64,000 bases of DNA from Henckelia pumila (lineage: Eukaryota; Streptophyta; Magnoliopsida; Lamiales; Gesneriaceae), in the NCBI RefSeq assembly GCF_033568475.1, contig NC_133123.1, positions 176,049,685-176,113,684 on the forward strand. The letters run 5' to 3'. The notes under the pieces are model-generated. The model did not search any database. It worked only from the letters and a program-made list of their open reading frames with translations, and was not told the DNA's origin. The position numbers and the translations under genes were made by a program. The number at the start of each line of letters is the position of its first letter. Within the stretch, counting starts at the first letter, position 1. Below are positions 6,142-44,005 of this stretch, piece after piece.

Positions 6142-6186
6142 AAGAGTGGGGACTGTTGAGGGTTTCTTGGTGTTCATTTCTGAATC

Positions 6187-8394
6187 ATGTCCAGTCGCCT
6201 CATCCACCTGCTCCGCCGTTCTACACGCCGCTACACCACCTCCTCCTCCGCTTCTTTTCCCTACCAAGCCCCCATCTCCGCCGCCGGCGCTTCCAATCCC
6301 CATGACCACGACCCCATAAATTCCGGCTACACGAACAACAATAACTTGGACTCTCCCACGGCGGACACACCTCAATATAATCCATACCCTAATCCTCAAT
6401 CCCATCCCCCTCCCTTTGAGTCCAATCCTAATCACCAATTTCAACCTTCCGCCGGGGATTCGCCAAATTTTCAGTACAGCTCCAAATTTTCCAATCATTT
6501 TCAACCGACGATTTCGAGTCCTAATAATCCTACCGTTAATCCTGCGTCCTACTCTGTTCCTGTGCGATCGTATGGATTCTCATCCGCAGAGGAGGCGGCG
6601 GCGGAGCGCCGGCGCCGGAAGCGCCGCCTTAGAATTGAGCCTCCTCTGTATGCCCTTCGCCCCAACCCCACCTACGCCCCACCCAATGCCAACGATCCTG
6701 ACAAGCCTAAGCTACCCGATTCCACATCTGCTCTGGTGGGGAATCGCCTCAATCTTCACAATCGGGTCCAGTCCCTGATTCGTGCTGGTGACCTTGTCTC
6801 AGCTTCCTATGTTGTTCGCCAGTCTGTTTTCCAATCGGTCCGCCCGACTGTCTTCACTTGCAATGCCATCATTGCAGCCATGTATCGTGCCAAGCGGTAC
6901 AATGATGCGAAGGCATTGTTTCAATACTTTTTTCGGCAGTTCAATATCATACCAAATATTGTTTCATATAATAATCTTATTGTATCTCATTGTGAGTCAA
7001 ATGAGGTTGATGACGCATTGAAAGTTTATGAGTACATAATAGAAAATGCACCATACAGCCCGTCCGCTGTAAGTTATCGCCATCTTACTAAGGGTCTTAT
7101 TGATGCAGATCGCATAAATGATGCAGTAAGTTTGCTTCGTGAGATGTTGAATAAGGGTCATGGTGCAGATTCTTTGGTTTATAATAATGTGATTCTTGGT
7201 TTCTTGAATTTGGGCAATTTAGAGAAGGCTAATGAGTTGTTTGATGAGTTGAAGGAACGGTGCACGGTTTATGATGGGGTCGTGAATGCGGCTTTCATGG
7301 ATTGGTTTTTCAAACAGGAGAAGCCGAAAGAGGCGATGGAGTCGTATAGGGATTTGATGGGTCGGAACTACAGGATGGTGCCTGCCACTAGAAATGTTCT
7401 TTTGGAGACGCTGTTGAGGCATGGGAAACATAAAGAAGCATGGGATTTGTTCAATGACATGTTGGATGATCACACACCACCAACTTTCCAGGCAGTGAAT
7501 TCTGACACTTTCAATATGATGGTCAATGAGTGCTTCAAGGAAGGGAAGGTTGAGGAGGCAATGGAGGTTTTCAAAAGATCCGGGAAGGGAGTCAAGTCGA
7601 AGCCTTTCCAGATGGATGTGGCAGGTTTTAATAATATGATTTTAAGAATGTGTGAGCTCGAAATGATGGATGAAGCAGAGCAATACTATAAGCAGTTATG
7701 TGACAAGTCATTGTCTCCGGATGTTAATACGTATAGAATATTGATTGACACATATATTAAGGTGGATAGGGTAGAAAATATGCTAGAGAAGTATGCAAAG
7801 ATGGTTGATTTGGGATTGAGAGTTATTCCACAATATGCCAATAAGTGGTTCGGTTTCTTGATTGAGAAAGGCAAGTCTTTTGATTGCATTCCTGTTTTGT
7901 CTAAAATGGCTGATCGAGAACCAAAACCAGATGTAACCACCTATGATATAGTGATAAGGGGGCTAGTTGAGGTAGGTAATTATGATGCCATTACCAATGT
8001 GCTTAGAGAGATGACTAACCATGGTGTTGGTACTTCGGCGTCACTTAAAGACTTTGTGTTGGATGTTTTTGAGAAACAAGGCCGGCGGGTTGAGATTGAG
8101 AATATTTTGAACAGCTACTCAAGTCATTTTCCACCTCAGAGGCCTTTCCAAGGGACCCGTGCTCCTGCAAGAATGGCTTGGTCACCTCAAACGGCTGAAC
8201 AGGGAGCAAGAAATCCTGCTTTGCCATGGCAGACGGCATCTCCTCCGTCTGCTCCCCAGACGATGGCTTATGATAATAATTATACTGAACGGAGAGTGTA
8301 TCAACCTCAAATAACTGAACAGATGGTACATCCACAGCCCATGTCTGGCCACGAGGCTGAACCCGTTCGAATGGCAGGACAATATGGCACCTAA
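6187..8394 (+). CDS. GRP23: Pentatricopeptide-repeat protein, GRP23-like
   Basis: A single uninterrupted 735-residue frame. The N-terminus (MSSRLIHLLRRSTRRYTTSS) is basic and serine-rich with no acidic residues, which suits an organelle presequence. Residues 50-120 are proline/asparagine-rich, 141-149 form a basic cluster (RRRRKRRLR), and about 180-640 is a tract of PPR helices (TVFTCNAIIAAMYRAKRYNDA, SVVYNN-type repeats). The C-terminus (about 655-735) is glutamine/proline-rich with scattered tryptophans. This order of basic region, PPRs and a Gln/Trp-bearing tail matches Arabidopsis GRP23 (At1g10270), required for early embryo development and linked to organelle RNA editing or to RNA polymerase interaction. 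The tail is shorter than in the Arabidopsis protein (about 913 residues as I recall). A telo-box lies just upstream. No introns, consistent with most PPR genes. The paralogue NUWA (At3g49240) is the main alternative. Confidence 0.85.
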   Translation: MSSRLIHLLRRSTRRYTTSSSASFPYQAPISAAGASNPHDHDPINSGYTNNNNLDSPTADTPQYNPYPNPQSHPPPFESNPNHQFQPSAGDSPNFQYSSKFSNHFQPTISSPNNPTVNPASYSVPVRSYGFSSAEEAAAERRRRKRRLRIEPPLYALRPNPTYAPPNANDPDKPKLPDSTSALVGNRLNLHNRVQSLIRAGDLVSASYVVRQSVFQSVRPTVFTCNAIIAAMYRAKRYNDAKALFQYFFRQFNIIPNIVSYNNLIVSHCESNEVDDALKVYEYIIENAPYSPSAVSYRHLTKGLIDADRINDAVSLLREMLNKGHGADSLVYNNVILGFLNLGNLEKANELFDELKERCTVYDGVVNAAFMDWFFKQEKPKEAMESYRDLMGRNYRMVPATRNVLLETLLRHGKHKEAWDLFNDMLDDHTPPTFQAVNSDTFNMMVNECFKEGKVEEAMEVFKRSGKGVKSKPFQMDVAGFNNMILRMCELEMMDEAEQYYKQLCDKSLSPDVNTYRILIDTYIKVDRVENMLEKYAKMVDLGLRVIPQYANKWFGFLIEKGKSFDCIPVLSKMADREPKPDVTTYDIVIRGLVEVGNYDAITNVLREMTNHGVGTSASLKDFVLDVFEKQGRRVEIENILNSYSSHFPPQRPFQGTRAPARMAWSPQTAEQGARNPALPWQTASPPSAPQTMAYDNNYTERRVYQPQITEQMVHPQPMSGHEAEPVRMAGQYGT

Positions 8395-12578: not shown

Positions 12579-13135
12579 GTATTTCATAGATTTCACTTTA
12601 AATATTAATAATAAGTTAAAGAGAAATGATCAATAAATCACTAATAAGGTCACTCTCGATTCAGACTGTATTTGTTTTCGCTCCCACACAAAAATATGTC
12701 CAACATTTGAATTCCCTGATTGAGATTCAAACCAAGACCTCTCTCATTTGCTCTCTGATTAAGATTCAAACCAAGAACTCTCTCATTTGTGAGGGTTTGG
12801 TGTCATTTAGGCTACAAGCTTGGGATGACAACGAGGTGGGTTCGGGGCGGATTTGATCAAATCCGAGACCCACCCGCCAAGGAAAATTCGGAACCCAAAC
12901 CCGTCCACCCCGCATCAAAACCCTAGTGCTATTAAATTTGTAGTTCCAATTTTATTTATTGGTTTGGCATTTTTAGTGTATAACATTTTTTTCTAAATTT
13001 CATAACACTTTCATTTTTCTAGGGTTTACCTGCATGTACACTTGAGTTCAATATTTAATCCTAGCCACAGTCACACACTAAATTCACGGGGTGGTTAAAA
13101 AAGTATGATTACTTTGTGAAGTATTTAAAATAAAG
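12226..13135. other. Upstream spacer with (TA)n tract and a common plant repeat
   Basis: This is promoter-side DNA of the dehydrogenase gene. A (TA)n tract occupies about 12538-12574. Near 12820-12930 a GGATGACAACGAGG-type stretch with CCCGCC/GGGGCGG words resembles 24904-25025, so it is a dispersed repeat. No gene is recognised. Confidence 0.55.
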
Positions 13136-13293
13136 GGATGTTGACTATTTATTTAAAAAAACAGGGAGTTGACTCATTTGAATTAAAATTAAACCTAATA
13201 AATAAATAAATTAAAAGAATTAACAATGTCAGGAGGTTTATTATTTGTTTCTTCTCCCCCAACCAAATTCTCCCGCAAAAGAAACGGGAAACC

Positions 13294-13300
13294 TATAAAA
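13294..13300 (+). promoter_or_regulatory. TATA box and 5' non-coding exon of the MULE transposase gene
   Basis: TATAAAA is followed by a pyrimidine-rich leader. A donor (CAA|GTAAGT) after 13437 and an acceptor (TTTTGTAG) ending at 14060 define a likely 623-bp intron in the 5' UTR, ending three bases before the ATG. The promoter is inferred from position and motif. Confidence 0.5.
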
Positions 13301-13565
13301 ACCTGCAATCTTCTTCATTTTTCTCTTCATCTGGATGCTAGTCCTTGAGCTGTGAAAAAAACCTAATCTATTTCAAACATCTTCTATTGCTCATTCATCT
13401 GTATTTGAAACAAAATTTTATCAAAGTACAAGCGCAAGTAAGTTTTCTCCATTCTTGTTTTTTAAGAGAGTTTTGTCCATTATTGTTGAATGTAAGCATT
13501 TATCTGATTTAAGTCGTTATTCTTTTCATTTAGCAAGTGCAAATAAAAAAAATGATGTGTTGGAA

Positions 13566-13930
13566 TCTGGGTCGATTCAAGGAACCCAAGGTTTGGGTAG
13601 CTTGGGTTGACCCAAGCCCTGGGTTTACCCAAAGCTTGGGTCGACCCAAGCCTTGGGTTGACCCAAGCTCTGGGTTTACCCAGGGCTTGGGTTGACCCAA
13701 GCTCTGGGTCGACCCAAGCCCTGGGTAAACCCAGATCTTGGGTCAACCCAAGGCTTGGGTCGACCCAAGCTTGGGTAAACCCATAGCTTGGGTCAACCCA
13801 AGCTACCCAAACCTTGGGGTTCCTTGGGTCGACCCAGGGTGATCCAAGCCTTGGGTCAACCCAATGAGTTTTGGGTCGACCATGGTTGACCCAGAATTCA
13901 TGGCCAAAACTTTTTTGGTTAACCATAGGT
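13566..13930. repeat. Palindromic CTTGGGTCGACCCAAG array 1 (leader intron)
   Basis: Roughly 15-18 bp units built on the palindrome CTTGGGTCGACCCAAG and its variants (centre TTGA, TCAA, TTTA or TAAA) run head to tail. Its right end (a CTTGGGTCAACCCAATGAG stretch, then GGTCGACCATG) is repeated almost exactly at 17867-17902. It lies inside the inferred 5' UTR intron of the transposase gene. Open frames here are caused by the repeat. Confidence 0.9.
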
Positions 13931-14063
13931 AGTTCTTGTTATTTTGTACCCAGAACTCTTTTGGTTGACCATGGGTAGATCATAGACAGAGCATGTAGTG
14001 TTCTTGTTATTTTTTGTGATTAAAATAGTTTTATTCTTATAATTTATGTGAATTTTGTAGGTT

Positions 14064-16331
14064 ATGCCTACGGTAATAGTTGTTCATTTCGATGGTAGAT
14101 GGGAAGCGAGTGAAGAAAACGTATATAAATGGAATCCCGGATCGAATTCAAAGTTTGCAGCTATTCCAGTATATGATGATTTTTTTCTTCTTGAAAATTT
14201 AAATCGTGAACTATATAGAGCTGGGAAAATAGAAGAGTCTGCCAACCTGAGGTTGAGTTACCTTCTAGAGTTGTCGTGCAACATTCAACCGATTTATATA
14301 GAGAATGATCAAGATTTGAAAGCATATCTGTATTTTGGTTGTCCGAAAACGAGGCCAGTGCTTAAAGTTGAAATTGAACATGTTGTTGGTTTTTTGGATG
14401 TTTCTGATAATGTGCATGAAGTTGGTATTGATGAAGGCAATACTAATTATAACGATCAAAACTCTTATGATGATTATTTTGATTTGAATATTGTTTCTTT
14501 GGATCGTAATAATATTAGTGAGGCTTTTGATGAGACAAATGTGGTTGCAAATAATGAGGCCGTTGTGGTTGCAACTGTGGATATTGATAGCGAGCCAATT
14601 GTGGTTGCAAGTAATGAGACAGTTGTGATTGCAAGAAATGAGTCAGATATGGTTGCAAATGTGGATATTGTTAATGACACATTTTCATTCACAGATGGTT
14701 CAAACTTGTTTGTTGGTCAAGAATTTCCAAACAGAGATGCGGTGAAAAATTTGTTAAGAAGAATCAGTTTGGAAGCATGTTTTGAATTTGAGACAGTAAA
14801 AAGTAGTCAGGTGGTGTATGCTGTGAAATGTACCGTGGCTAATTGTAAGTGGAGAATCTGGACCTCAAAGATGAAAGATTCACATGTATTCTCCATTCGA
14901 AAATATTGCAATACACATACTTGTGATTTGACGGGGAGGCGTAAGAGAATCCGTGGAGCTAGTTCGATTGTTGTTCGTGATATGTTGGTGAATAATTTTC
15001 AAGGTAATCAAGTACAAATAACACCGAAAGCGGTCATGGCGATGATGCGCAATAATATGAATGCTGATATATCATATTACAAGGCTTGGAGAGGAAAAGA
15101 ACTAGCAGACAATATTTTGAAAGGTGATCCTACCAAGAGTTTTACTCTACTGCCTTGTTATTTGCACATGGTTGAGAAGATGAACCGAGGAAGCATAACA
15201 GACATATGTGTTGACGAGAAAAATCGATTCAAGTATATGTTTCTTGCTTTTGGTGCGTGTGTCAGGGGATATCGAAGCATGCGAAAATGTGTGTCAATTG
15301 ATGGTACATGGTTGAAAGGCAAGTACAATGGTGTTTTACTTGTGGCATCCGCACAGGATGGAAATTATCATCAATATCCTTTGGCGTGGGGAATTGTCGA
15401 TGGTGAGTCTACTTCTTCGTGGAGTTGGTTTTTGACGAAGTTGTTAGAAGTAGTACCAGACTCGACTGATCTGGTGATAATTTCAGACAGACATCAGGGA
15501 ATAATTAATGCTGTTTCTAGTGTTTATAAAAATGCACATCATGGTCATTGTGTGTGGCATTTATCCCAGAATTTGAAAACCAGGTGCAAAAAAAAGGGCG
15601 CAACGGAAATGTTTTTGCAGATTGCAAAAATTTATAAGCAAAACGAGTTTGATGTTGCATACAGTGATTTTAGGAAGAGATATCCTGAGGCTGCGCAGTT
15701 TTTGGACGAAAGAGATACACTTGATCGATGGACTCGAGCATATTGCCCAAATACTCGTTACAATATTTTGACGACAAACGGGGTTGAATCAATCAATGCT
15801 AGACTACTTGAAGAGAGAAAGCTTCCTATAATATCACTTTTAGATTCTTTACAGAGACTGACATCATCTTGGTTTGTCCGATATCGTAACGCATCAGTTG
15901 CAGCTAACAATAATCTGACCCCTACCATCGAGGGAATTCTTCGCAGCCGGTTCACTGATGCCCAAGGAATGCAAGTTTTTGAATTGGGCCGTCTTGAGTT
16001 TGATGTTCGGAGTGGTCGACACTCGGCCATTGTGGACCTGGAATCTAAAAGATGCACTTGCCGAGTTTTTGATATTGACAGATTCCCATGTGCTCATGCC
16101 ATTGCAGCCAGTTGGTTAGCGAATATTGACTTGTATCAATTGTGTTCAGAGTATTATTCTACGATGACATGGTGTATGGCTTACTCAGAGACTGTCTATC
16201 CAGTTCCGGAAGAAAGTGAATGGCCACCTAACATTAATTTTCCAGTTGTATTACCTCCTTGTCTACAAAAAAAAGTGGGTAGAAAAAAACAAAATAGAAT
16301 TCCTTCGATTGGAGAATTTAGTAAAAGATAG
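14064..16331 (+). CDS. mudrA-type MULE transposase
   Basis: An uninterrupted 755-residue frame in one coding exon. It would cut and move the element by binding the ends and catalysing strand transfer in the nucleus. The N-terminus (1-60) resembles the PB1-like head of plant MuDR proteins. About 210-285 is the MuDR DNA-binding region with conserved Cys/His (VKCTVANCKWRIW, THTC). About 408-500 is the MULE DDE domain, with Asp413 in SIDGTWLKG, Asp475 in IISDRHQG and the HCVWHL motif. A SWIM zinc finger sits at about 664-682 (CTCRVF...FPCAH). The third acidic residue is not assigned with confidence. Residues about 150-205 hold near-repeats of the type VVVA-NE. The intact frame suggests recent activity. 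The start is chosen at the first ATG after a good splice acceptor. Confidence 0.9.
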   Translation: MPTVIVVHFDGRWEASEENVYKWNPGSNSKFAAIPVYDDFFLLENLNRELYRAGKIEESANLRLSYLLELSCNIQPIYIENDQDLKAYLYFGCPKTRPVLKVEIEHVVGFLDVSDNVHEVGIDEGNTNYNDQNSYDDYFDLNIVSLDRNNISEAFDETNVVANNEAVVVATVDIDSEPIVVASNETVVIARNESDMVANVDIVNDTFSFTDGSNLFVGQEFPNRDAVKNLLRRISLEACFEFETVKSSQVVYAVKCTVANCKWRIWTSKMKDSHVFSIRKYCNTHTCDLTGRRKRIRGASSIVVRDMLVNNFQGNQVQITPKAVMAMMRNNMNADISYYKAWRGKELADNILKGDPTKSFTLLPCYLHMVEKMNRGSITDICVDEKNRFKYMFLAFGACVRGYRSMRKCVSIDGTWLKGKYNGVLLVASAQDGNYHQYPLAWGIVDGESTSSWSWFLTKLLEVVPDSTDLVIISDRHQGIINAVSSVYKNAHHGHCVWHLSQNLKTRCKKKGATEMFLQIAKIYKQNEFDVAYSDFRKRYPEAAQFLDERDTLDRWTRAYCPNTRYNILTTNGVESINARLLEERKLPIISLLDSLQRLTSSWFVRYRNASVAANNNLTPTIEGILRSRFTDAQGMQVFELGRLEFDVRSGRHSAIVDLESKRCTCRVFDIDRFPCAHAIAASWLANIDLYQLCSEYYSTMTWCMAYSETVYPVPEESEWPPNINFPVVLPPCLQKKVGRKKQNRIPSIGEFSKR

Positions 16332-16429
16332 AAGTAGCTTTTGTGTTTTGTAATAATGAGTTAAAAAAACATAGAAGCAACCTTTGTGTTTTGTAATAAT
16401 AAGTCAAAAAAATATCTTGTCCAAAAAAA

Positions 16430-16573
16430 ATTGGGTCGATCCAAGAAGTTTCTTGGTCAACCCAAGAGTTTCTGGGTCAACCCAAGAGTTTTTGGGTCGA
16501 CCCAAGAAGTTTCTTGGTCAACCCAAGAGTTTTTGGGTCGACCCAAGGCTTGGGTCAACCCAAGCTACCCAAA
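16430..16573. repeat. Palindromic GGGTCGACCC array 2
   Basis: Units here more often carry CAAGAAGTTTCTTGG and CAAGAGTTTTTGGG spacers around GGTCAACCC/GGGTCGACCC. It starts about 100 bp after the transposase stop and ends where the 104-bp minisatellite begins. The same unit order opens array 3. Confidence 0.9.
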
Positions 16574-17598
16574 CTTGAAAGATTATATATTAAAATCGTT
16601 AAACCAAGATTATATATTAAAATCGTTAAACCAGTGGATTCAACTATTAAAACATGTATCATTATATAAAATACTCGTGAAAATAGGATATACATATGTT
16701 ATAACTTGAAAGATTATATATTAAAATCGTTAAACCAATGGATTCAACTATTAAAACATGTATCATTATATAAAATACTCGTGATACATATGTTATAACT
16801 TGAAAGATTATATATTAAAATCGTTAAACCAATGGATTCAACTATTAAAACATGTATCATTATATAAAATACTCGTGAAAATAGGATATACATATGTTAT
16901 AACTTGAAAGATTATATATTAAAATCGTTAAACCAGTTAATTCAACTATTAAAACATGTATCGTTATATAAAATACTCGTGAAAATAGGATATACATATG
17001 TTATAACTTGAAAGATTATATATTAAAATCGTTAAACCAGTGGATTCAACTATTAAAACATGTATCATTATATAAAATACTCGTGAAAATAGGATATACA
17101 TATGTTATAACTTGAAAGATTATATATTAAAATCGTTAAACCAGTTAATTCAACTATTAAAACATGTATCGTTATATAAAATACTCGTGAAAATAGGATA
17201 TACATATGTTATAACTTGAAAGATTATATATTAAAATCGTTAAACCAGTGGATTCAACTATTAAAACATGTATCATTATATAAAATACTCGTGAAAATAG
17301 GATATACATATGTTATAACTTGAAAGATTATATATTAAAATCGTTAAACCAGTGGATTCAACTATTAAAACATGTATCATTATATAAAATACTCGTGAAA
17401 ATAGGATATACATATGTTATAACTTGAAAGATTATATATTAAAATCGTTAAACCAATGGATTCAACTATTAAAACATGTATCATTATATAAAATACTCGT
17501 GATACATATGTTATAACTTGAAAGATTATATATTAAAATCGTTAAACCAGTGGATTCAACTATTAAAACATGTATCATTATATAAAATACTCGTGAAA
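16574..17598. repeat. 104-bp tandem minisatellite between the MULE genes
   Basis: About ten copies of an AT-rich unit that opens CTTGAAAGATTATATA. Unit starts fall near 16705, 16799, 16903, 17007, 17111, 17215, 17319, 17423 and 17517, so most are exactly 104 bp. Two units are 94 bp, lacking the same 10 bp. The first copy carries an extra 30-bp internal duplication. Units alternate small variants (GTGGATTC or TTAATTC; ATCATT or ATCGTT), suggesting higher-order duplication. Confidence 0.95.
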
Positions 17599-17903
17599 AG
17601 TTTTTTGGTCAACCCAAGAGTTTCTGGGTCAACCCAAGAGTTTTTGGGTCGACCCAAGAAGTTTCTTGGTCAACCCAAGAAGTTTTTGGGTCAACCCAAG
17701 GCTTGGGTTGACCCAAGCCTTGGGTCGACCCAGGGCTTGGGTCGACCCAAGGCTTGGGTCAACCCAAGGCTTGGGTCGACCCAAGCTTTGGGTAAACCCA
17801 TAGCTTGGGTCAACCCAAGCTACCCAAACCTTGGGGGTTCCTTGGGTCGACCCAGGGTGATCCAAGCCTTGGGTCAACCCAATGAGTTTTGGGTCGACCA
17901 TGA
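17599..17903. repeat. Palindromic GGGTCGACCC array 3
   Basis: It begins with the same unit order as array 2 and ends with the same end sequence as array 1, joining the two types. It lies directly before the 3' end of the Ulp1-like gene. Confidence 0.9.
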
Positions 17904-17982
17904 TTGTAAATCGTTAAACCAGTGGATTCAACATAATTGTGAAAATAAAACCTTAAATTCATCAATTCAAAAGAAATAAAGA

Positions 17983-20900
17983 TCAATGAATAGTCCATTG
18001 ATTATCAAACATATTACAGAGTAAAAAAAATCTAAACTCAGTTACAAGTTTGTCATCTAACTTTAATACTAGGTAATCACTTTTCTTGGATAAAGCATAT
18101 CCAGCAACGGCGAGGACAAATGCTCCTGAATCCTCACTGTAAAATAAAAACAATATGAAACTATTAGTCATCTGTCAATGATAAACATATTACACATTAG
18201 AGATATGATAACGTACTGTTTAATCTGGGCTTTGAACTCATCAAACATTTTTATAGACCATGACCTCTCAGGATGTGGGTTGTTCCCAACAAAAGATAGC
18301 AGACGAGCAACGTTGATAAGTATAGGCCCTATGTCCTCATCCAGATCTTTGCACTTAGGATCGTGCTTTCGCTGCAAATCATATATAGTGCACTTATTGA
18401 CCCCTGCAACGAGTTTTAGTAAAAACCATCGTCCATCTCTGTGGACTGGGATGAGGATTATTCGCGCCTTTGCCCAGGAGACACAAGGCCATTTTGGATC
18501 CATCCCTTTAACCACCCCTACCACATTTGTTTTGAGAATTCGGTTTTCAACTTCATCCACCACGGACATCGACACATAGAAATGCCTATCCATCAGGGAC
18601 ACGTTTGTTGACATCACTTCAGGATGTTTTAGCTGAATCTCGAGTAATCCACGGAGAGCTTCACCCATGAGCTAAATTCGACAGAAGAATATTTTTCAAA
18701 GATAAAAAATAATTGATCTACAAATGTTCACGAATTTTAAATGCTTACACAAATCGTGACGAGCGAATTTGCGATTGTCATGGGCTTGTAGAACGACTTG
18801 TCATAATTGTCATAAAATCCTTTTATTCTGCTAGGCGAACTTACAAGCATCGATGCTCTAACTCGAGCCAACGAGTTGTTTACCTTGAAAGTCAAGTACT
18901 CCACAAATGGCCTCACACCGTCACAACCTCTCGACGTGGTTGCCTCAGAACCTGACATAACCGCATTAGGAGTCACCTGAATATCTAAAAACATAAAGTT
19001 GATCATTTATTATGTTATGCTATACATAAATATATACGTAAAAAAATGCATTAACTTACCTTCAAAGGATTCCTCTGGTATAGTTGGCAGCTCAACTCGG
19101 CTATTTTTGGGAAACAATTCCCTGATCATATTATCATCAACACCTAACAGTATACATCAAACAACTTAAAATTAAAATGACAATTTTAATACATAATTCT
19201 CTTATGTGCACTTAATTAAAAATTACTCACCAACGTCTGCCTCAAGTACAGATGATTTTCTCTTTTGCCTTCTGCTATAGACCATGCTATAATCTCTCTG
19301 AACATGTACCGCCGTCTGAGACCTGATCTCAGCCAAACCTGCTCTAATCTGTTCAGTCAAACTCGATCTCAACTCATCAAAACCAGCTTTCATTTGCCTT
19401 ATACACGCTCTGGTGTCGATAAATTGTGCTCTCATCTCAAGACGCAATGAGTTAACGGTATCATCCAATTCACTCAAACGCCGCCCAAAACGATGCTCAA
19501 GGGATGATGTGCGGCGAGTAGGATTGGCTCCAACGTAGACTCTAGGCCCCGTACGAATGGGACGAAGAGTGCTAGAGCTGGATCTAATGGCATCAGCAGA
19601 AGGGGTGCTGGAGCTGGATCTAGTGGCTTCAATAGAAGGGTTGCTAGAGCTGGATCTAGTGACATCATGCTCGAGAGGGTGCTGGCTGCATATAACAGCC
19701 TTACCCTGACTCCACAACTCTAGTACCCGAGTGGTGACGACATCTGGTGCAGAATCAACAAAAACACCGGTGGTATAATACGATGACATGAGCTCCTCAT
19801 AAGTAGGAGTCAAATATCCAACACAATCCTATATTTATTTAAAATCGTATCAGATAAATTAAAAAAATTATGCCCACAGCTACGATATCAAATTAATTAA
19901 TATTACTTACGTTTATATCACAGGCACCAAATGCTGCACTAACATCAACATCAGACGGGGCACGATTTGCAGGCCACATGTTCGTCACCCACTGAAACAT
20001 CCTGGGCAAAATCAAACCGTCTACCATATCTTTTCTCTTGGCAAACTTTTGTGCCACACTAGGATAATATTCATAAGCCAAGATCTGCGAAAATTATTTC
20101 AAACAATATTATTATTATAAATAAAAATAACAAAGTCACTTTTAACATTCAAAAAATGATATACCTGCAGAGGCAGCACAAAACCACATAGAAGAAAATT
20201 GCCATGAACTTCTTTACAACCATGTCCCTGGGAAGTATATTTCTTTAAAAGGTCCTTCTTCAAAGATTTGACGGCATCATGATAGGCTATTCTACCCCAG
20301 GGATACTTATTAAACCTATCCAAATCATCTATAAGCCTTAGACATGTACAGTCGACCTTCATGTTTTTTTTCCTACTCCCCCCACAGAATACAGCAGAAT
20401 AAAAGTAAAGATTAGCCATCTTCAACTTCTCCACATCTATCCCCACAGTCTCATTTTGTCCTACGGCAGTAATCTTTGTCTCCAAATCACTAAGAAAAAT
20501 TTGAGACTTACCAACAAAGTGTCTCGAGACAAAGATACTTTCTACATCTGGTAGATCTGTCGGCTCTATACTGCAGCTGAGACCTGTTATTAAACAATAT
20601 TCTAACATAGAAAATCTAACTGGCCTTTTACGCACGACCATCCAAAAATCATCACTACCGTTATCAACTATCTGGCTACTCATTAGATACCACATAATTT
20701 GACTTGAAACATTAAAATCTCGGTGATACCTAACGAGGTTACCAAATGGTGACTGATCAAAAAACGTTGCTATTTCCTCGTTGTTCAGATAGTTATGAAT
20801 CTTCTGGGCAGTCTCTTTATATCTCGACTCAATTGTCAATTTCACACGAAAAATTGCATTTCTGCCCAGTTTTGTTGGCAAATATACCTATGAAAAAATA

Positions 20901-21710
20901 AAAATAAAACAAATACATTAGAACAATAAAAAACAAATATTGAATCATGGATCAAACAAATCTATGTATCTAGCCAAGCTCAAGTGAAACCCAAGCGTGG
21001 GTCAACCCAAGGCTTGGGTTTACCCAAGGAAGGCTTGGGTTGACCCAAGCTTTGGGTCGACCCAAGCCCTGGGCAGAGCTTGGGTCAACCCAGGGCTTGG
21101 GTCGACCCAAGCTTTGGGTTGACCCAAGCCCTGGGTTTACCCAAAGCTTGGGTCGACCCAAGCCCTGGGCAAAGCTTGGGTCAACCCAGGGCTTGGGTCG
21201 ACCCAAGCTTTGGGTCAACCCAAGGCTTGAGTCACCCTGGTCGACCCAAGGAACCCAAGGTTTGGGTAGCTTGGGTTGACCCAAGCCCTGGGTCAACCCA
21301 AACTCTGGGTTTATCCAAGGGCTTGGGTCGACCCAAGGAACCCAAGGTTTGGGTAGCTTGGGTCGACCCAAGCCCTGGGCAAAGCTTGGGTCAACCCAGG
21401 GCTTGGGTCGACCCAAGCTTTGGGTTGCCCAAAGCTTGGGTCGACCCAAGCCCTGGGTTGACCCAAGCTTTGCCCAGGGCTTGGGTCGACCCAAGCTACC
21501 CAAACCTTGGGTTCCTTGGGTCGACCCAAGCCCTTGGATAAACCCAGAGTTTGGGTTGACCCAGGGCTTGGGTCAACCCAAGCTACCCAAACCTTGGGTT
21601 CCTTGGGTCGACCAGGGTGACTCAAGCCTTGGGTTAACCCAAGACACCTAAGACCCAGTAAATATAAATTTTTTAAATATTACCAGATCCTTGTTAGCCA
21701 TTTGATTCAT
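17983..21710 (-). CDS. MULE-borne DUF1985/Ulp1-like gene, 8 exons, catalytic residues lost
   Basis: Exons on the minus strand: 21710-21684, 20887-20165, 20084-19911, 19828-19231, 19143-19060, 18984-18749, 18671-18217, 18136-17983. All junctions are GT-AG and the sum (2451 nt) is one open frame of 816 residues. About 30-200 matches DUF1985, the N-terminal domain of transposon-borne Ulp1-like proteins. About 330-500 is Ser/Thr-rich, then probably coiled coil. About 620-800 is a C48 (Ulp1/SUMO protease) fold. The triad looks broken: Arg695 (in DGRWFLL) stands where His is expected, Asp712 (in TIYDLQ) is kept, and Ser769 (in EDSGAF) replaces the Cys nucleophile. Active members cleave SUMO-like conjugates; this copy is probably inactive or works as a binder. 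The short first exon (MNQMANKDL) is the least certain part. Gene limits are inferred by hand. Confidence 0.75.
20979..21643. repeat. Palindromic array 4 with a 431-bp near-perfect palindrome
   Basis: This is the largest CTTGGGTCGACCCAAG-type array. The part from 21211 to 21641 is an inverted repeat: arms 21211-21424 and 21428-21641 (214 bp each) around a 3-nt centre. I found only one mismatch, near the outer end, on reading through. It lies in the inferred first intron of the Ulp1-like gene. Long open frames on both strands here are mirror images produced by the palindrome. Confidence 0.92.
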
Positions 21711-21959
21711 GGAATTTGATATGTGTTGGATGAGAATGGATTTAGAGAGAAAAAAAGTGACCTGCGAGAAGGGGGAGGGAGAATGGAGATGAGAGAAGGA
21801 AGATGGGTGGAAACTGGGAACGTTGGATAATGAAATATTTGGTAGAAACAAATAGATTTAAGTTTTTTAAAAAAGTTAAATAGAAGGATATATTAGTAAT
21901 TTAAACAATGAATCCTTCTTTTTAAATACGATAGAATGCACTCCCTTTTATCTAAATTT

Positions 21960-24354
21960 CCCCTAAATTCACCCTCAACTCACGCACACGCACACGCACA
22001 CACACACCCAAAACACACACTTGAAGCCGCCTCCCCTGTTCTTGGATAAAACCTGCGCATTCTTCCATTCTTCTTCCTTTGGTCCTTTAATCATTTCTTC
22101 TCCGGCAAATCATTCCTAGGCAAGTTGGTCGTGATTCTTGAGCTCGATTTCAACTCCCTCCAGCTCGAGCAGTCCATTTCCGTTGTTTCGATATTTCGAC
22201 TCCGGGCCCTTATTACGTTCGATTCTCTTGTGATAGGCAAGGATATGGATCTATTGTTTTCCCCTTGTAGTTTATTATGTATTATGTGTTGCATACATGA
22301 AACTTTCGAATGGTTTATGTATTTTTTTTTTGCCCCTGTTCGAAGCTCTCCATTTAGCCGAGAGGTTTTGTTCTGTTACATTTTTTTTCATTCCGTCGCA
22401 TTCATGCTTGGATTCAAACCATGTTATTCGCTGATTTTGAAGTATATTTAAGATTGGATTGTGAATGCATTGTAGACATGATTCTTCGAAAGTTTCCAGA
22501 TTCATATGCCTTGAGGATTTCGAAATTTTGTTCAGCTTGTAAGCATGTGGTTTCGAAACTGTCTTGTTTCCCTTTTGGCCGTGTTGTGATGATTTGGATG
22601 GTGATTGAGGAGCTACCACGGTTGATATGTAGTTCACGTGGTGGTTTTTAGGAAGGCATGGAGTTGTGCTTAGTATTGGTTTGGAGTAAGCATTCGAATT
22701 CGTGAGGTAAGGGGGCAGTTTTGATAAGAGGATTGGTGCTGTCATTGAGTTGAGTTTAAGGCGATTCAAGTTGTGTAGTAAGGGCTGATATTGAGGTTGA
22801 ACATTGGTCTTGGCCCTAGGATTAGAGTCACAGGAGATTGGGAGAAATATAGCAAATTTTGGGTTAAGTTTGAATCGGTAACTACAGCAGAATTTCGAAT
22901 GTTGAGTGGGCTGTCCGGAAACTATTTTGAAACTGGGTTTAAACTCGGGTTTTGGGTAAGGGATCGGGTTTAGAATTGTTCTAGGATGTTTGAAATATGA
23001 CGGTTCAAGCGAGAATTAATTCGGTTAAGATTTGGTCGAGATGTAGACATTTATAGGAAGGTGTGCAGAATTTTGGAAGTTATAGGGGGAGGGCTGTCCA
23101 GAAATGGAATTTTTGTAAAATGGTTGTCTGGAAAGTAAATTCAGAGGATGATTTTTCTACTTAGTTCTAAGTGTTGTGGTGTAGTGGTTTCAAGCGAAAT
23201 CCTTTTTGGTTAGGAAACGAGCAAGTTATTAATTTTACGGGCAAACCGCTCGATTTTTGTCGTAAGTGCAATTTATGGGTTAAATTTTCCATCCTTTGGT
23301 TTAGTTCCTAAATCAACATCCCAATCATCCTTGTGTGAGTCATATGCATGATTATTGAGTAATATTTACATTCACGTACTATCTACACATGCATGCTAAG
23401 TCCATATTCAAGTGTGAAAGAAAATTACTTTTTACGAACGAAATGAGATGATTGTGACTACATTTATTCACGTGTATGTGTGGGGCCGGGAGACGTTTTG
23501 GCTTTCCTTACCAAATTATGGGTTTTCTTACCTTAGCATGTGTTTGTGTGGGGCTGAAAGATATTTTGGCCTCCCTTACCAATTCAGGGCAAGTTTGGTT
23601 GGGTTTCATCCTGACTTCCTTGCGGCATAGTGCACTACAGCCATGATCATGATCGAAATCACAGAGTCACAATTCAAGGATCTAAATTCAATATTTATGA
23701 CTATGTTAAGATCAGTTTATTCAATTATTTATGTTTGACTTAGCCATTCATATGTGTCATTCATGTTCACTCCTTTCATTTAGAAATCATTTATTTTAAG
23801 TTAAGGGCACAAAATTATTTTACTACAAGTTATTTTTAATCTGCTTGTGCTTGTATTTACGTAGTACTCGTTATTCCCTCCCCCCATATTCTTGCTGAGT
23901 CTTTTAGACTCACTCCACTTATTTGTTTTCAAGTGATGACTTCTACTTTGAGGCTGAGGGGCCGGATCCCCAGGGGGAGGTCACCGGTGGTGCAGGCCCT
24001 TGACCGACGTGCTTTTAGTTGTTCCGCAAACTCTGATGTTTTCATTTATGAGTCGTAGTATTTCATACCCTGACAGTCGTTTGCAGGAGATGTTTTCCCT
24101 GCTTTGGAATATTTGGCATGTAAACTTAACAGTTTGTTATTCCGCAACTGGGTGGGATAAACTCCCTTTTCTAGATTTTTATGATTATCGTATTTGGATT
24201 AAATTTACCAGGAGTTTATTTCATTTGTTGAACTGCTGTCTGTGACAGGTTGGCTTTTATTAGTTTTTAAAACGAGTCATGGAATTTTTTTTGAAAAATC
24301 CCGTATTTTCTTTATTAAATTAAATAATTATATTAAAGATATCTAGCCGTTTCA
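21960..24354 (+). mobile_element. LTR, family W, copy 1
   Basis: It ends GCCGTTTCA at 24354 and shares several blocks with the split W LTR: GGCAAGGATATGG near 22240 (compare 32160), GAGCTACCACGG near 22610 (32470), and TTCCTTGCGGCATAGTGCACT near 23610 (46730). The start, which should be TGTAGCACC, is missing, so the left end is truncated near the MULE border. It contains a short CA-rich tract near 21985-22020. No coding domain is seen. Confidence 0.7.
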
Positions 24355-34067: not shown

Positions 34068-36566
34068 ATGCCTCCCCGTAAAGCACCGACCACTAGACAT
34101 ACATTGGCTGTTCCCCAGGCCGAACCAGCACCAGCACCAGCACCACTGCCAGTTGCTGAACCTCCGAATGCACAGGGTAGTACATCGGCTGATTCTATGG
34201 ATGCTACTGCTACGCCAATGAAGACATTGCTGAAACGATTTCAGTCGTTCAAACCGCCAAAACTGAAAGGAACAGAAAATTCAGTTGATTGTGAGAATTG
34301 GTTAGAAGACATTGAACAGTTATTTGAATTGCTTGATTATACCGATGATCGTCGTATTAAACTTGTAATACATCAACTTCATGAAGTTGCCAAAAGTTGG
34401 TGGATTACGACAAAACGGGCATTAGAACATTGAGGTACGACTATCACCTGGACTATCTTTAAAACTGATTTCTATCAACGTTTCTTTCCAGTCTCCTACA
34501 GGAAAGATAAGGGTGCTGAATTTTCCAATCTGAGGCAAGGCAACTTGAATATTGAAGAATATGTGGCCAAATTTTCATGTCTTTTGAAGTTTGCCCCACA
34601 TATAGCAGAGACTAATGAAGCCATGGAAGATCAATTTATTAATGGCCTCAATCCAGATGTGTTAACTTTTATGAACAGTGGACGACCCAATACCTTTGCT
34701 GATGCCTTGAATAAAGCTAAGGGAGCAGAAGCAGGTTTATTACGACAAAGAGGAGCACCATTTCTTCCACAGCCATCTCCACAGCCTGTATCAGCATCAG
34801 TGCCACAGAATCCGCCACAGTTTCAGCAACCATCTCCCAGATTTGAGGGAGGAAGCAGTGGCAGAAAGGATTCTAGATTCAGGCCTAAAGGTAAACAGTT
34901 TAAGAAGTCTGGCAGTAGTTCTTCTAGTTCTAGTGGTCAAAGTCCGTTTGGTACAGGACAAAGATCTAGTGATGCAGGAGTGTTTTGTGGAAAGTGTGGT
35001 GGACGACATGCTACCGAGCAGTGCAGAGGTGTGTCCGGAAATTGTAATATTTATCGCCAACTAGGTAATTATGCCAAGGTATGTCCTCAAAGAACAACAA
35101 AACGTACATCTGGTGCAAGTTAATCTCGACCAGTACCTCAAGAAGAAAGGCAATCAGTGAATTCATTTCAGCCTCAGCAACAAACCAGAGCAGGAGGAAG
35201 CCAGACTGTGACTCAACCTCCTAGGAAACAGGCACGAGTGTTTGCATTGACGGAGGAGCAGGCACATGCAGCACCTGACGATGTCATAGCAGGTAACTGC
35301 TCTATTTATGGTTATCCTGCCTATGTTTTGATAGATACAGGTGCATCACATACATTCATCTCTGAAAAATTTGCTATGATGCATTCATTATCGGCTGAGC
35401 CATTGCCAACTGTTGTTTCTATTTCATCACCTTTAGGTGAAGGTATTATCTCTGTTAGAATGATTCAAAATTGTACACTACAATATGACGGAAACATGAT
35501 CGATTTGGATTGTATCGTACTTGGTTTATCAGATTTCGATTGCATTATCGGTATAGATATGTTAACCAAGTACAGGGCGACTGTGGACTGTTTTCAGAAA
35601 GTGGTCAGATTTAAACCAGAAATGGCAGCTGAATGGAAATTCTATGGTAAGGGTTCTCGAGCTAAGATCCCTTTGATATCTGTGTTATCTATGACCCGTT
35701 TATTGCAGAGAGGTGCAGGAAGATTTCTGAGTTATGCAGTCGATGTATTGAAATCCAGTCCAGCAGTGACAGATATCCCAGTAGTGCATGAATTCGCTGA
35801 TGTATTTCCTGATGAAATTCCTGGTTTACCTCCAGTTCGAGAAATAGATTTCAGCATTGAGTTAATGCCAGGTACGCAACCAATATCCAAAGTACCTTAC
35901 AGAATGACACCTATTGAATTGAAGGAGTTGAAGGATCGGTTAGAAGATTTACTTGCTAAAGGGTACATTAGGCCGAGCGTTTTACCTTGGGGCGCTCCGG
36001 TACTTTTTGTACAAAAGAAAGATGGTTCTATGCGGTTGTGTATCGATTATCGTCAACTGAACAAGGCAAAATTGAATAATTATCCACTGCCTAGAATAGA
36101 TGATTTGTTTGATCAGCTACAGGATCTATTCGAAGATTGATTTACGATTTGGATATCATCAGCTAAGGGTAAGAGATGAAGACATCCCTAAAACTGCTTT
36201 CATAACAAGGTATGGTCATTATGAATTTATTGTCATGCCTTTTGGTTTAACCAATGCTCCTGAAGTATTTATGGGATTGATGAATCGGGTATTTCAGAAA
36301 TACTTAGATGACTTTGTCATTATTTTTATCGATGATATCTTGATACATTCCAAGAATATGTACGATCATGCTGAACATCTCTGAATCATCTTACAGACTT
36401 TGTGAACTGAGAACTTATATGCCAAGTTATCGAAATGTGATTTTTGGTTGCAGAAAGTTGTGTTTCTTGGGCATATCATCTCAGGTGATGGAATTTCAGT
36501 GGATCCAAGCAAGGTAGAGGCGGTACTTAATTGGCCGAGACCTACATCAGTACCAGAAATACGAAG
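34068..36566 (+). pseudogene. Gypsy gag-pol of element Z, broken and truncated
   Basis: From ATG 34068 the frame encodes gag (LLKRFQSFKPPKLKGTEN, WLEDIEQLFELLDYTDD), a degenerate zinc knuckle (CNIYRQLGNYAKVC: second Cys and His lost), aspartic protease with an intact DTGA ([13 protein letters not shown]), and reverse transcriptase up to [10 protein letters not shown] and FLGHIISGDG. In-frame stops occur at about 34431, 35121, 36382 and 36403. A small deletion with frameshift near 36115-36125 removes residues before [12 protein letters not shown]. The stops are what C-to-T change would produce from CGA or CAA codons. RNase H and integrase are missing because element V interrupts the frame at 36567. 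Confidence 0.9.
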
Positions 36567-39177
36567 TGAAACATCTACTACTAATAAATGCGGAATTTTT
36601 TTTTTTAAATAATACTAAGTAAAATAGATGTACATACATGCCCATACATATATGCACAAAATAAACAGATTTAAAAATAACATAAATAAAATGCAACATT
36701 CTTACTTAAATAACTGAGTCAAACTTAAATAGAATACTGTCAAACAATCCACTTAAAAGTTTGCATGCAATAAAAATTATTTAATAAAAATAGTACTAAA
36801 ATTCACCACTGACAAACATAAAAGAAACAGAGTTTTTAAAAATTCTTAAAAATATCCATAAAGACTCAGCCGGCGGTCACGGGGGATCACTGCATGTCCG
36901 CTCATACGTCCTCACCACCGGTAGGAACTACATATTCCTCTACGTACTCACCTGCATCATATAAGTGTAGTGAGCCTAGAGACCCAACATGCTAACATAA
37001 CAAGGGTTTAAAATAATTTAAATCACTGGAATACTAATACATAACATATACATGAATGAGCATGCTTAAAAATCATGAATCATGACTGAAAATCTTGCTT
37101 AAACTTGATCTTATATATAATCATATATTACATACATAAACATTGTTGAGCATAAAATTTTCTAACATCGCATGGTCATATCCGTAGTGTAACCTTAAAC
37201 TTAAAAGTTCGACTGATCAGTCTCTTAGAACCAACGTACGCGGCGGTGACGAATCACCTCTTACTGGTAGTAAACTACCCTTAAATTGACAGTAAACTGC
37301 CCTTAACATGTGGGGACTGGTCCCCCTTAAATTGTCACACTACTTCAACTTTCAACATAAAATTATTTTCTAGCTCAACCTTAAACATTAAATCATGCCA
37401 TAAAATTATTTAATGAATGCATGCACTGAAAATATGTCCGTAATATATATTTAATTAATTTTTCATAATATAATATACTTATACTTAAAATAGACTTTAT
37501 GCATAAAAATAATTAAATATATATCCCGGACTTATTTATTTTTCATGGGTTGGTCCAGACTGTTGGTCACTCATCTAGGCCCAATAATCTTAAATAAAAG
37601 CCCAATCATTTTATTCAACTTAAATGGGCCTAAAGAAAATATTTAAGCCCATTAACTTAAACAAGCCCAATAAGACTCTAGACAGACCCAAAAATCTCCT
37701 GACTGGCCCAAAAATTTCTATGGGCCCACGAGCCCATAAAAATTATTGGGTTAGCTTAAAAATAATTTAAAAAGCCCAAATAAAATTATTTGGAGGCCCA
37801 AATAATTTTCTAACTAATTTTAAAAGCCCAAAATACACTTGAACCATTAAATACTTCAAAATTAAAATACCCGAGCCCGGCCCACCTAACCCAAACCCGG
37901 ACCACCTGACCCGACCCTAAACCTACCAGACCCGACCCTGACCCCAAGACCCGACCCAGTCCCCAGCCCCAGCCCAAAACCCGAACCCCCCTTTCCCCTT
38001 CCCTTCGCTGCGCGAGCAGCAGCTCTTCAAGGGCTGCTGCCGCACGGCTCCGGCCACGACCGGTCGGAGCGCCGCGGCAGGACCTTCCCAGGGTCCTGCC
38101 GGTCCTAACCCATGCATCCCTCTGACCCATAACAGCCCTGCATGGTCCAACCGAGCTCTCTTCCAATAAACCCTAACCTGCAAACCCATGGACCCAAATC
38201 TGATGCAACTCAACTCCAGACCTGTTCCAGCCTTAACCCTGGCCATGGCTCGACCCATATGACCCCAACACACCCCTTGACTCTTGAACCAGCAGACCGA
38301 TCCCATCCCATAACAAAAAACGTGGGGTTTTGCATGAAACAAAGCAAAAATCATGAGTTTACCATGTTCTAGCCAAGAACTTAACATAAAACGTGAATTG
38401 CCTAAAAAAAAAAAATCTGACATCAGTGCATTAAATAGCTTATATGGTGTTGAGAAAGAATTAAACATGCCTTTATAATTGTTTGAAGTAGGTTGATGCG
38501 TATAAGGGCTCCGGGACGACGAACGGACCAAAAACTCGATAAATCTTCAAAGAACGAGTTGATCGGCTATGGAGGACTATTTTTCTGAGATGGAGGCATG
38601 AAGAGGGTTTGGAAGAAGGTGGGAGTAGGCTGATTAGGGTTGAGAGATAGGGTAGGTTTGTTTTAAATTTGATAAATAGAATTAAAATAGGATATTAACT
38701 AATTTAGAAATAAAATCATACCTAATTAAATATTTAAAACTCCATAATAACTTAATAATTCTGATAACACAATCCAAATCCCGAAATATAAATTTAAGGG
38801 ATTTTTAAAATTTAATAAAAGTCATTAAAATGACTTATTTTGGCTAAAAATAAACCCTTAAATAAATATATAACTAAATACTAAATTTTTCTTGACAAAA
38901 TAACTTAAAATATTATTTTAAGGCTCATAAAACTCATAAAATATTTTTAGCTAAATATTTTGGTATCTCGTCCGTCCACGGTCCCGTCTACGCGATCAAA
39001 ACAATTAATTTCCATAAATCATGAAAAATCACTAATTGTGGGTTAAATGCTTAAAAATAACTTAAAACATGCACACATAATTTCACATAATTATTTAACC
39101 CATAATTTAAAATTCTAAATAAATAAAATCTCTAATTATGCATGCGAATTTACGTGCTAAAAATACTGGGTGTTACA
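36567..39177 (-). mobile_element. 3' LTR of gypsy element V (2611 bp)
   Basis: On the minus strand it starts TGTAACACCCAG (39177) and ends ATGTTTCA (36567), next to a polypurine tract. Nearly identical to 44020-46634 along its whole length, with scattered mainly transition differences, so V is a recent insertion. 37575-37850 carries a dense cluster of GCCCA/TGGGC motifs, and 37975-38300 is GC-rich. Long open frames here (37810-38531, minus) have no known domain and are broken in the other copy. Confidence 0.95.
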
Positions 39178-39196
39178 ATTCTCCCCCCCTTAATTT
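39178..39196 (-). promoter_or_regulatory. Polypurine tract of element V
   Basis: The minus strand reads AAGGGGGGGAGAAT immediately before the 3' LTR; this primes plus-strand DNA synthesis. Confidence 0.85.
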
Positions 39197-39222
39197 GAAT
39201 TTCGTCCTCGAAATTAAAGTAC

Positions 39223-40842
39223 TTACCCGAACAACTCCGGGTAGCGAGTCCTCATGTCTGCCTCGGTCTCCCAAGTAGCTTCCTCCTCCGAGTGATTCAG
39301 CCACTGGACTCTGACCATCGGTATGACCCGCGTCCTAAGTCTCCGCTCCTCCCGATCCAAGATCCGAACTGGCCTCTCCTCATAAACTAGATCAGGTGGC
39401 AACTGCAAGGGCTCGAAATCCAACACATGCGACGGGTTAGAGACATATCTCCGAAGCATGGATACATGAAAGACATCGTGCACTGCCACAATTCCTGGTG
39501 GTAAGGCCAAACGGTAGGCCAATGTGCCAACTCTCTCCAAGATCTCAAAAGGTCCGATATATCTCGGATTAAGCTTACCTCTACGGCCAAATCGTACCAC
39601 TTCCTTCATAGGTGACACTTTCAGAAACACGTGATCACCTACTGCGAACTCCAAATCTCGTTGTCGAGTATCTGCATAACTCTTCTGACGACTCTGAGCA
39701 GTTCTCATACGATCCCGAATCTGAGTCACAATGTCAGCTGTCTGCTGCACGATCTCAGGACCCAGTAAAATCCTCTCACCAACCTCATCCCAATGCACAG
39801 GAGATCTGCATCTCCTCCCATACAATGCTGCATAGGGAGCCATACCTATAGACGACTGAAAACTGTTGTTATAGGTAAACTCCACTAATGGCAATCTCGT
39901 CTCCCATGAGCCCTGAAAGTCGATGACACAAGCCCTCAGTAGATCTTCGAGAATCTGTATCACCCTCTCTGACTGACCATCTGTCTGGGGATGAAAAGCT
40001 GTGCTGAACAGTAGTCTAGTCCCCAATGCTGTGCAAAACACGGATGTGAATCTCGGATCTCTATCGGATACAATGGACACAGGTATGCCATGCAATCTAA
40101 AAATCTCCTTGATGTAAAGATCTGCATACTGTGTCAAGGAGTAGGTAGTCCTCACCGGCAAGAAATGAGCTGACTTGGTGAGTCTATCCACGATCACCCA
40201 AATAGCTGTGCAACCTCTGTTACTCCTCGGAAGGCCAACTACAAAATCCATTGTAATGTTCTCCCATTTCCATTTCGGAATAGGAAGAGATCTAAGAAGT
40301 CCTGCTGGACGCTGATGCTCTGCCTTGACTCGCTGACAAGTCAAACACTCTGACACAACTCTCCCGATGTCTCTCTTCATCCCGGGCCACCAATACAATA
40401 GCTGCAAATCTCTGTACATCTTTGTACTCTCGGGGTGAATGGAGTACGGAGATGTGTGAGCCTCTGCTTAAATCTCAGCTCTCAACTGATCGACGTTTGG
40501 TACCCACATCCTACCATGGTACTGAACAATGCCATCCACAACTGTATAAAGACGACCACCCTTGGCCTCATCTCTCTGCCTCCAACGCTGTAACTCCTCA
40601 TAAATAGTCTGTCCAACTCTGATCCGATCTCGTATAATCGGTTGCACCGTCAACACTGACAAGCTCGGTGCATGACCACTCGAGTAAAACTCCAAATCAA
40701 ACCTCTGAATCTCGCTCTGCAGTGGTAACTGCACTGTCAAACACGATACCACTGTCGACTTCCGACTCAAGGCATCGGCCACTACATTAGCTTTACCTGG
40801 ATGGTAGCTAATGTCACAGTCGTAATCCTTCACTAACTCCAA
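39223..40842 (-). pseudogene. Element V RNase H end and integrase with chromodomain-like tail
   Basis: 39223-40419 is open for 398 codons. It starts at the zinc-binding region (CLTCQRVKAEHQ) and continues into the integrase core (MDFVVGLPRS, then SDRDPRFTS, then HPQTDGQSER) and a C-terminal part with a chromodomain-like end (VRVQWLNHSEEEATWE). 40468-40842 holds the end of RNase H (DYDCDISYHPGKANVVADALSR, read as two pieces). A stop near 40467 and another near 40843 interrupt it. The chromodomain and long LTRs indicate a chromovirus, probably of the Tekay/Del type. Chromodomains direct insertion to heterochromatin. The integrase part alone could still be translatable; the full polyprotein could not. 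Confidence 0.85.
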
Positions 40843-40944
40843 CTATCTCCATTGCCTCATGTTCAACTCCTTCTGAGTGAAGAAGTACTTGAGGCTCTTA
40901 TGATCCGTGAAAATCTTGCACTTTTCGCCATACAGATAGTGCCT

Positions 40945-42549: not shown

Positions 42550-42594
42550 TGCAAACGTGGAGTTGCCTCCAACTAGAATTCTCCCTGCACGCAG

Positions 42595-42800
42595 AAGAAT
42601 CCCAACAACTTTATACCACTACTAAACTTTTCCCCCAAAGATGAGTCACTAATAACCCTTAATTCTAATCACAAGTAAAACATGCTTCCTATTCTAACAT
42701 GCAGATAGAAAAATCCCAAATAACAAATTATTCCACAAAGAAAAAATCGAAATTCTTAACCAAAGGAAGAAATTATAAAATACTAGGGGTAAGATATACC
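42595..42800 (-). other. Intron-like gap between gag and protease of element V
   Basis: Minus-strand coding ends ...SLITG at a GGTATATC donor and resumes at TGCGTGCAG with [21 protein letters not shown]. The 200-bp interval is AT-rich with stops in all frames. Removing it would join ITG to RILVGG in frame. This looks like a GT-AG intron, although an AT-rich insertion is possible. Boundaries are approximate. Confidence 0.5.
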
Positions 42801-42841
42801 GGTGATCAAGGAGGTATCTGGGTCTGCCTCCTCAGCCTGCA

Positions 42842-43816: not shown

Positions 43817-44005
43817 TCTGCACCACCACATATTTCTTTACGTAAATCGACATGCATAACTAAGTACTTAAAAATTTTCTGCTAACATAAATGCTTAAGT
43901 CTTAAACATGATACTACTAAATCATACTAAAAGCAATTAAAACTTACAGACCGGTAGCGTGGATTTCTGAGCTCGCATAGCAGTGATGACCCCTCCAAGA
44001 ACGCG

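Follow-up and report, generated by a model that had tools for sequence, protein, structure and literature searches.

INTRODUCTION

In Arabidopsis, VANDAL transposons encode anti-silencing proteins, called VANC, that contain DUF1985 and bind short motifs arrayed in the non-coding DNA of their own elements (PMC5735166). In the same source, VANC21, of the DUF1985 group, binds YAGTATTAY, which is dense in the introns and in the intergenic and terminal non-coding regions of VANDAL21, and VANC6 is associated with AGTTGTCC or AGTTGTAC. The target regions are described there as evolving by tandem-repeat formation, and the variable parts of VANC proteins as often containing tandem peptide motifs. RNA-directed DNA methylation (RdDM) acts on VANDAL non-coding regions, and its targets overlap those of VANC1 and VANC6 (PMC10398659, in excerpt). 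A subgroup of VANC genes with an Ulp1 domain constitutes KIU (available part of the review PMC13317346), and in KI-MULEs, which are Mutator-like elements (MULEs), the ULP domain is encoded opposite to the transposase (PMC2528002, likewise in excerpt). Here we analyze a stretch of 64,000 nucleotides from Henckelia pumila (Gesneriaceae; contig NC_133123.1, positions 176,049,685 to 176,113,684), hereafter the window, which contains an inferred MULE with two convergent genes and four arrays of a short palindrome. On balance, its likeness to the systems above favors the reading that this is a MULE of the VANC/KIU type, the palindrome arrays being the putative targets of its own DUF1985 protein.

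RESULTS

The coding part of the element consists of a transposase gene and, on the opposite strand, a gene for a DUF1985 protein. No second copy of either gene was found in the 64-kb window. The features of the two genes are as follows.

14064..16331, plus strand: gene 1, MULE transposase, 755 aa, open (PF10551, 6.8e-21; PF03108, 2.9e-12; PF00872; SWIM)
13438..14060, plus strand: predicted intron in the 5' untranslated region (5'-UTR) of gene 1, containing array 1; GTAAGT...TTGTAG read from the sequence
17983..21710, minus strand: gene 2, 8 predicted coding exons, 816 aa, open, convergent with gene 1; 7 of 7 introns GT-AG
21710-21684, 20887-20165, 20084-19911, 19828-19231, 19143-19060, 18984-18749, 18671-18217, 18136-17983, minus strand: predicted exons of gene 2
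20888..21683, minus strand: intron 1 of gene 2, containing array 4; GT-AG gene prediction
20165..20887, minus strand: exon 2 of gene 2, DUF1985 (PF09331, 9e-20, 71.5 bits, cut-off 35.1; open frame 20099-20887)
19569..19676, minus strand: 36-bp tandem repeat, about 3 copies, in gene 2 exon 4, where it gives a repeated peptide; repeat scan
17983..18671, minus strand: exons 7-8 of gene 2, encoding the bulk of the Ulp1-like domain (PF02902, Peptidase_C48, 2e-6, 28.3 bits, cut-off 20.7)

The domains PF10551 and PF03108 identify gene 1 as that of a MULE. Gene 2 places the VANC domain beside this transposase, and its C-terminus, which scores above the Peptidase_C48 cut-off, resembles that of the KIU subgroup. 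The junction between exons 1 and 2 of gene 2 is consistent with the Primulina proteins P0004-P0007 (P numbers denote database proteins).

The palindrome was found in four arrays, which together with an intervening minisatellite occupy the following positions.

13566..13930, no strand: array 1, from CTTGGGTCGACCCAAG matches and repeat scan; inside the predicted 5'-UTR intron of gene 1
16430..16573, no strand: array 2, from CTTGGGTCGACCCAAG matches and repeat scan
16579..17599, no strand: 104-bp minisatellite between arrays 2 and 3; repeat scan
17599..17903, no strand: array 3, from CTTGGGTCGACCCAAG matches and repeat scan
20979..21643, no strand: array 4, from CTTGGGTCGACCCAAG matches and repeat scan; inside intron 1 of gene 2

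All 53 sites of the window that have at most three mismatches to CTTGGGTCGACCCAAG lie inside these arrays, compared with a mean of 0.15 and a maximum of 2 sites in 100 shuffles. The pattern GGGTNNACCC behaves in the same way, with 55 of 55 sites within the arrays (14, 4, 12, and 25 in arrays 1-4) and none elsewhere in the 64 kb. Predicted coding sequence makes up 4719 of the 8876 bp of the inferred element and contains none of the 66 GGTNNACC cores. The dense arrays of a short motif are thus confined to predicted non-coding DNA. The 104-bp units of the minisatellite are near-identical, and a fragment of the unit recurs directly to the right of array 3, which indicates that arrays and minisatellite are interleaved.

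A first-pass annotation of this DNA had described a single palindrome in four arrays within a two-gene, convergent Mutator-like element, the outer arrays in the first introns and the inner ones flanking the minisatellite, and this layout is borne out in each of these respects. It had overlooked the DUF1985 and the Ulp1-like C-terminus of gene 2, and also the large-scale symmetry of arrays 1 and 4.

Positions 13567-13837 of array 1 form one giant palindrome, in which 256 of 274 columns match their own reverse complement, and positions 21210-21642 of array 4 form another (428 of 433 columns). In the latter, the arms 21210-21424 and 21428-21642, of 215 nt each, are 100% complementary and are separated by a 3-nt spacer. 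Arrays 2 and 3 are less palindromic overall (74 of 98 and 146 of 183 columns). An assembly fold-back artefact as the source of the 215-nt arms was judged unlikely, given that exon 1 sequence agreeing with relatives continues beyond them.

The giant palindromes suggest that the arrays could act as RNA, the inverted repeats in the introns giving double-stranded transcripts, host small RNAs, and finally methylation of the arrays, that is, a trigger of self-silencing by design or accident. The perfect arms lie in intron 1 of gene 2, whose predicted RNA fold reaches -694.4 kcal/mol (z -44, 20 shuffles); for array 1 the value is -315.5 kcal/mol (z -27, 100 shuffles). The action of RdDM on VANDAL non-coding regions, with targets overlapping those of VANC1 and VANC6 (excerpted text of PMC10398659), is in line with such a role. 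However, the unit is itself palindromic, so that any array of it is self-complementary and folds for that reason, and arrays 2 and 3 would be superfluous to an RNA function and are not giant palindromes. We therefore regard this explanation as unlikely.

Variation among the sites is unevenly distributed. In the 53-site set, positions 3-7 and 10-14 are altered in 0 to 2 sites each, the two central positions in 11 and 20 sites, and the outer positions 1, 2, 15, and 16 in 13, 7, 8, and 3 sites, respectively. The centers of the 55 GGGTNNACCC sites are CG (21), CA (17), TG (9), TT (4), AA (3), and TA (1). The first-pass annotation had attributed the variants to deamination of a central CpG. This agrees with 30 of the 31 central changes in the 53-site set, which are C to T or G to A, and with 26 of the 34 non-CG centers in the 55-site set, each of which fits one deamination; the TA center fits two. 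As the sole origin of the variants, deamination was rejected, since seven of the 55 centers (TT and AA) require another change and the count is inflated by mirror copies. Arrays 1 and 4 being giant palindromes, TG and CA variants are in part reflections of each other and not independent events. Among the inner arm cytosines (positions 11-13) of the 53 sites, C to T is seen once, whereas T replaces the outer C of position 1 in 12 sites. A constrained pair of half-sites around a free spacer accounts equally well for the inner pattern, and deamination is therefore a possible source of the central variants and not a demonstrated one.

The same centers bear on the idea that the sites recruit a host WRKY activator. 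The W-box recognized by WRKY proteins is TTGACC, and the 26 of 55 sites with a TG or CA center present it on one strand. The commonest single form, with the CG center, lacks TTGACC, and the long symmetrical arms would be unnecessary for a W-box, which makes this proposal scarcely credible.

Database searches retrieved 28 relatives of gene 2, all from Primulina or H. pumila, with 41-87% identity over the aligned part. Some database proteins begin within an intron, and in four of the relatives (P0009, P0010, P0011, and P0015) a leader stands in place of exon 1 and continues into exon 2. The leader of P0015, from which the beginning of exon 2 is missing, is of upstream but uncertain position. Putative arrays of the relatives were deduced indirectly, from protein sequence by back-translation. 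The leaders of P0009, P0011, and P0015, selected after the matches had been seen, could encode TGGTCGACCA in 18 places within 187 residues, compared with 0 places in the remaining 12,715 residues of the 28 proteins, a control in which the 61 residues of the P0010 leader were counted. The relaxed form TGGTYRACCA is encodable 19 times in the three leaders, across all three reading phases. The leaders from P. huaijiensis could encode ATGGTCGACCAT in 8 places (arms ATGGT/ACCAT), and that from P. tabacum TTGGTCGACCAA in 3 places (arms TTGGT/ACCAA). The palindrome of the window, TTGGGTCGACCCAA (arms TTGGGT/ACCCAA), is encodable by none of the three. The leader peptides thus point to sister palindromes with the same 8-bp core, in a similar place, and with other arms, in relatives that have the gene 2 protein in common with the window. 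They give a partial answer to the check proposed in the first-pass annotation, whether array positions are kept in other copies of the element.

One further relative, the Primulina eburnea protein P0008, has DUF1985 joined to a CHROMATIN REMODELING 35-like SNF2 helicase, perhaps through a fusion of gene models. A transposon beside or carrying a silencing-type remodeler gene would, if real, be of interest.

Long blocks are common to the arrays, of 83 nt at 94% between arrays 1 and 3 and of 92 nt at 96% between arrays 2 and 3, which indicates that arrays were copied among themselves within the element. Such copying would be expected if a functionless palindromic sequence had expanded by slippage and spread to four places, and the minisatellite, another tandem array alongside, and the mirror-image arms, which point to recent copying, are compatible with neutral growth of this kind. 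Copying and homogenization have, however, also been reported for VANC targets, so that the shared blocks do not decide between neutral growth and function. Neutral growth would leave unexplained the restriction of the palindrome to four non-coding places of one element, the near-invariance of the half-sites beside a variable center, and the capacity of the relatives' leaders to encode the same core. We give it a small chance.

The Ulp1-like end of the gene 2 protein was compared with solved structures, among which SENP5 was the sole match (E 0.091). In this alignment, Arg takes the place of the His in the HW of SENP5 and Ser that of the Cys in its DCG, these two being the catalytic residues. 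The relatives that reach these positions have RW in four of four cases (P0001, P0002, P0003, and P0028) and DSG in three of three (P0001, P0002, and P0003). That the replacements are common to the relatives suggests that the protease end is probably dead. Of three relatives also scanned for Peptidase_C48, P0003 scores 14.7 bits, below the cut-off, and P0001 and P0028 give no match. Three alignments were used: A1 comprises gene 2 and 7 of 11 relatives (P0002, P0008, P0010, and P0011 omitted), A2, for the DUF1985 model, the window exon and 12 of the 28 relatives, and A3, for a model of P0001, 7 of the 28. The AlphaFold model of P0001 has a pLDDT (predicted local distance difference test) of 32.3, and a search of solved structures with the A3 profile returned two antibody chains (E 0.59 and 2.3).

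The boundaries of the element were assigned from matching ends and flanking repeats.

13088..21963, no strand: inferred MULE of 8876 bp with the ends GGGG...CCCC, between the two copies of an exact 9-bp repeat
13079..13087, plus strand: left candidate target-site duplication TAAATTCAC, exact 9-bp repeat
21964..21972, plus strand: right candidate target-site duplication TAAATTCAC, exact 9-bp repeat

These ends are probable and not proven, because 31 of 2000 Markov resamples also give a 9-bp repeat pair with matching 4-nt ends and the real flanks contain one further candidate end pair (12993/21952). Terminal inverted repeats are weak, with a local alignment score of 70 against a maximum of 66 in 200 shuffles, and the alignment overruns the inferred right end. 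Weak termini could leave a role in end pairing, or in self-regulation, to transposase bound at the palindromes. Gene 1 has a MuDR-type DNA-binding domain (PF03108). Array 1 starts 479 bp inside the inferred left end of the element, and array 4 stops 321 bp short of the right one. Two of the four arrays are internal, though, none lies at the ends themselves, and DUF1985 is a documented alternative binder; transposase binding is accordingly very unlikely.

The closest relative of the transposase, also from H. pumila, has 85% identity over 68% of the query, and more distant ones reach Humulus, Ulmus, and Spinacia. Neither transposase relatives nor paired palindromes were found in viral contigs. 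A scan of 24 transposase relatives for palindrome-encoded tripeptides revealed no mixed N-terminal cluster. VDR occurs three times in P0030 and twice in P0035, with a spacing of about 20 residues.

Elsewhere in the window, direct repeats at 36559-39243 and 44012-46700 (2.7 kb, 97.5% identical) enclose minus-strand frames of gag, protease, reverse transcriptase, and integrase type, and the region 36559-46700 looks like a Ty3-type long terminal repeat (LTR) retrotransposon. Plus-strand gag and protease frames at 34434-36137 form another retrotransposon remnant adjoining it. A second pair of long direct repeats, at 51035-53075 and 60600-62637, is 95.9% identical over 2.04 kb. At 6184-8391, a 736-aa open frame with pentatricopeptide (PPR) repeats is probably a host gene.

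DISCUSSION

The reading of this element as of the VANC/KIU type draws on several features. Gene 2 encodes the domain of VANC proteins, with an Ulp1-like C-terminus as in KIU and in the orientation to the transposase seen in KI-MULEs, and its tandem peptide repeat resembles the variable parts of VANC proteins. The palindrome cores avoid predicted coding sequence, as the VANC21 motif is mainly non-coding and dense in tandem repeats; the arm positions are nearly fixed while the center varies; and three relatives have leaders that could encode the core. Under this reading, gene 1 would supply the transposase, and the product of gene 2 would bind the palindromes as its target sites, possibly with one subunit of a dimer on each GGT half-site. 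Binding to these dense arrays, in the two introns next to the promoters and in the space that separates the gene ends, would remove or block host methylation over the element, the relief of methylation would allow its genes to be expressed, and the element could then move. The density of the sites would confer specificity for its own family.

A function for the arrays had already been proposed in the first-pass annotation, which offered transposase binding, silencing control, or end pairing. Silencing control is the best of these readings, and the other two are weaker, because half of the arrays are internal. Its remark that this layout has no known counterpart among described MULEs is not supported, given that VANDAL21 and VANDAL6 have tandem motif arrays in non-coding DNA that are recognized by their own VANC proteins (accessible portion of PMC5735166). 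The likeness to VANDAL21 (Hiun) with its VANC21 comprises a MULE transposase, a DUF1985 protein, and dense short-motif arrays, as tandem repeats, in introns and other non-coding DNA. The likeness to Kaonashi/KIU consists of a VANC-type gene that contains an Ulp1 domain (PMC13317346, in excerpt) and runs against the transposase gene, an orientation known from KI-MULEs (PMC2528002, in excerpt); the apparent replacement of the protease His and Cys may set gene 2 apart. What distinguishes these sites from those of Arabidopsis is that the unit is palindromic and that the outer arrays are themselves giant palindromes, a feature for which the accessible portion of PMC5735166 has no mention in VANDAL21. 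In the literature searched, which took in a minority of subscription papers, intronic palindrome arrays were not described for any MULE; this does not prove their absence.

Several points weigh against this reading. YAGTATTAY occurs in VANDAL21 in one orientation and is not palindromic, whereas the site of the window is, and the VANDAL6/VANC6 motif is likewise non-palindromic and different from that of the window (accessible portion of PMC5735166). VANDAL21 has three genes and the window element two, and in one survey VANDAL falls among the elements of Brassicaceae (PMC6446971, in excerpt). No VANDAL or VANC sequence was recognized among the 52 proteins retrieved. The AlphaFold model of DUF1985 is unusable (pLDDT 34.7), and no DNA-binding fold is visible in it. 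The 61-residue leader of P0010, one of the four informative leaders, contains no encodable palindrome, and the manner in which the other three were chosen weakens their comparison with the control. A VANDAL-like way of working is better supported than membership of the VANDAL clade.

In a more speculative and rather improbable extension, one motif would serve both sides of an arms race. The giant intron palindromes would be docking platforms for DUF1985 and at the same time sources of hairpin small RNAs, so that the element would limit itself, and joint change of protein and site would let the arms diverge from species to species about an invariant GGTCGACC core.

In Arabidopsis, VANC proteins are known to counter silencing in a sequence-specific way. 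If the VANC/KIU-type reading is true, such a system probably also operates in Gesneriaceae. Its site would there be a simple palindrome, the core of which looks constant and the arms of which differ between the window (TTGGGT/ACCCAA) and two Primulina species (ATGGT/ACCAT and TTGGT/ACCAA). A palindromic site with differing arms would allow the code between DUF1985 proteins and their targets to be tested through exchanges of proteins and probes. Further peculiarities open to test are the protease end, which looks dead, and the giant inverted repeats that each of the first introns contains.

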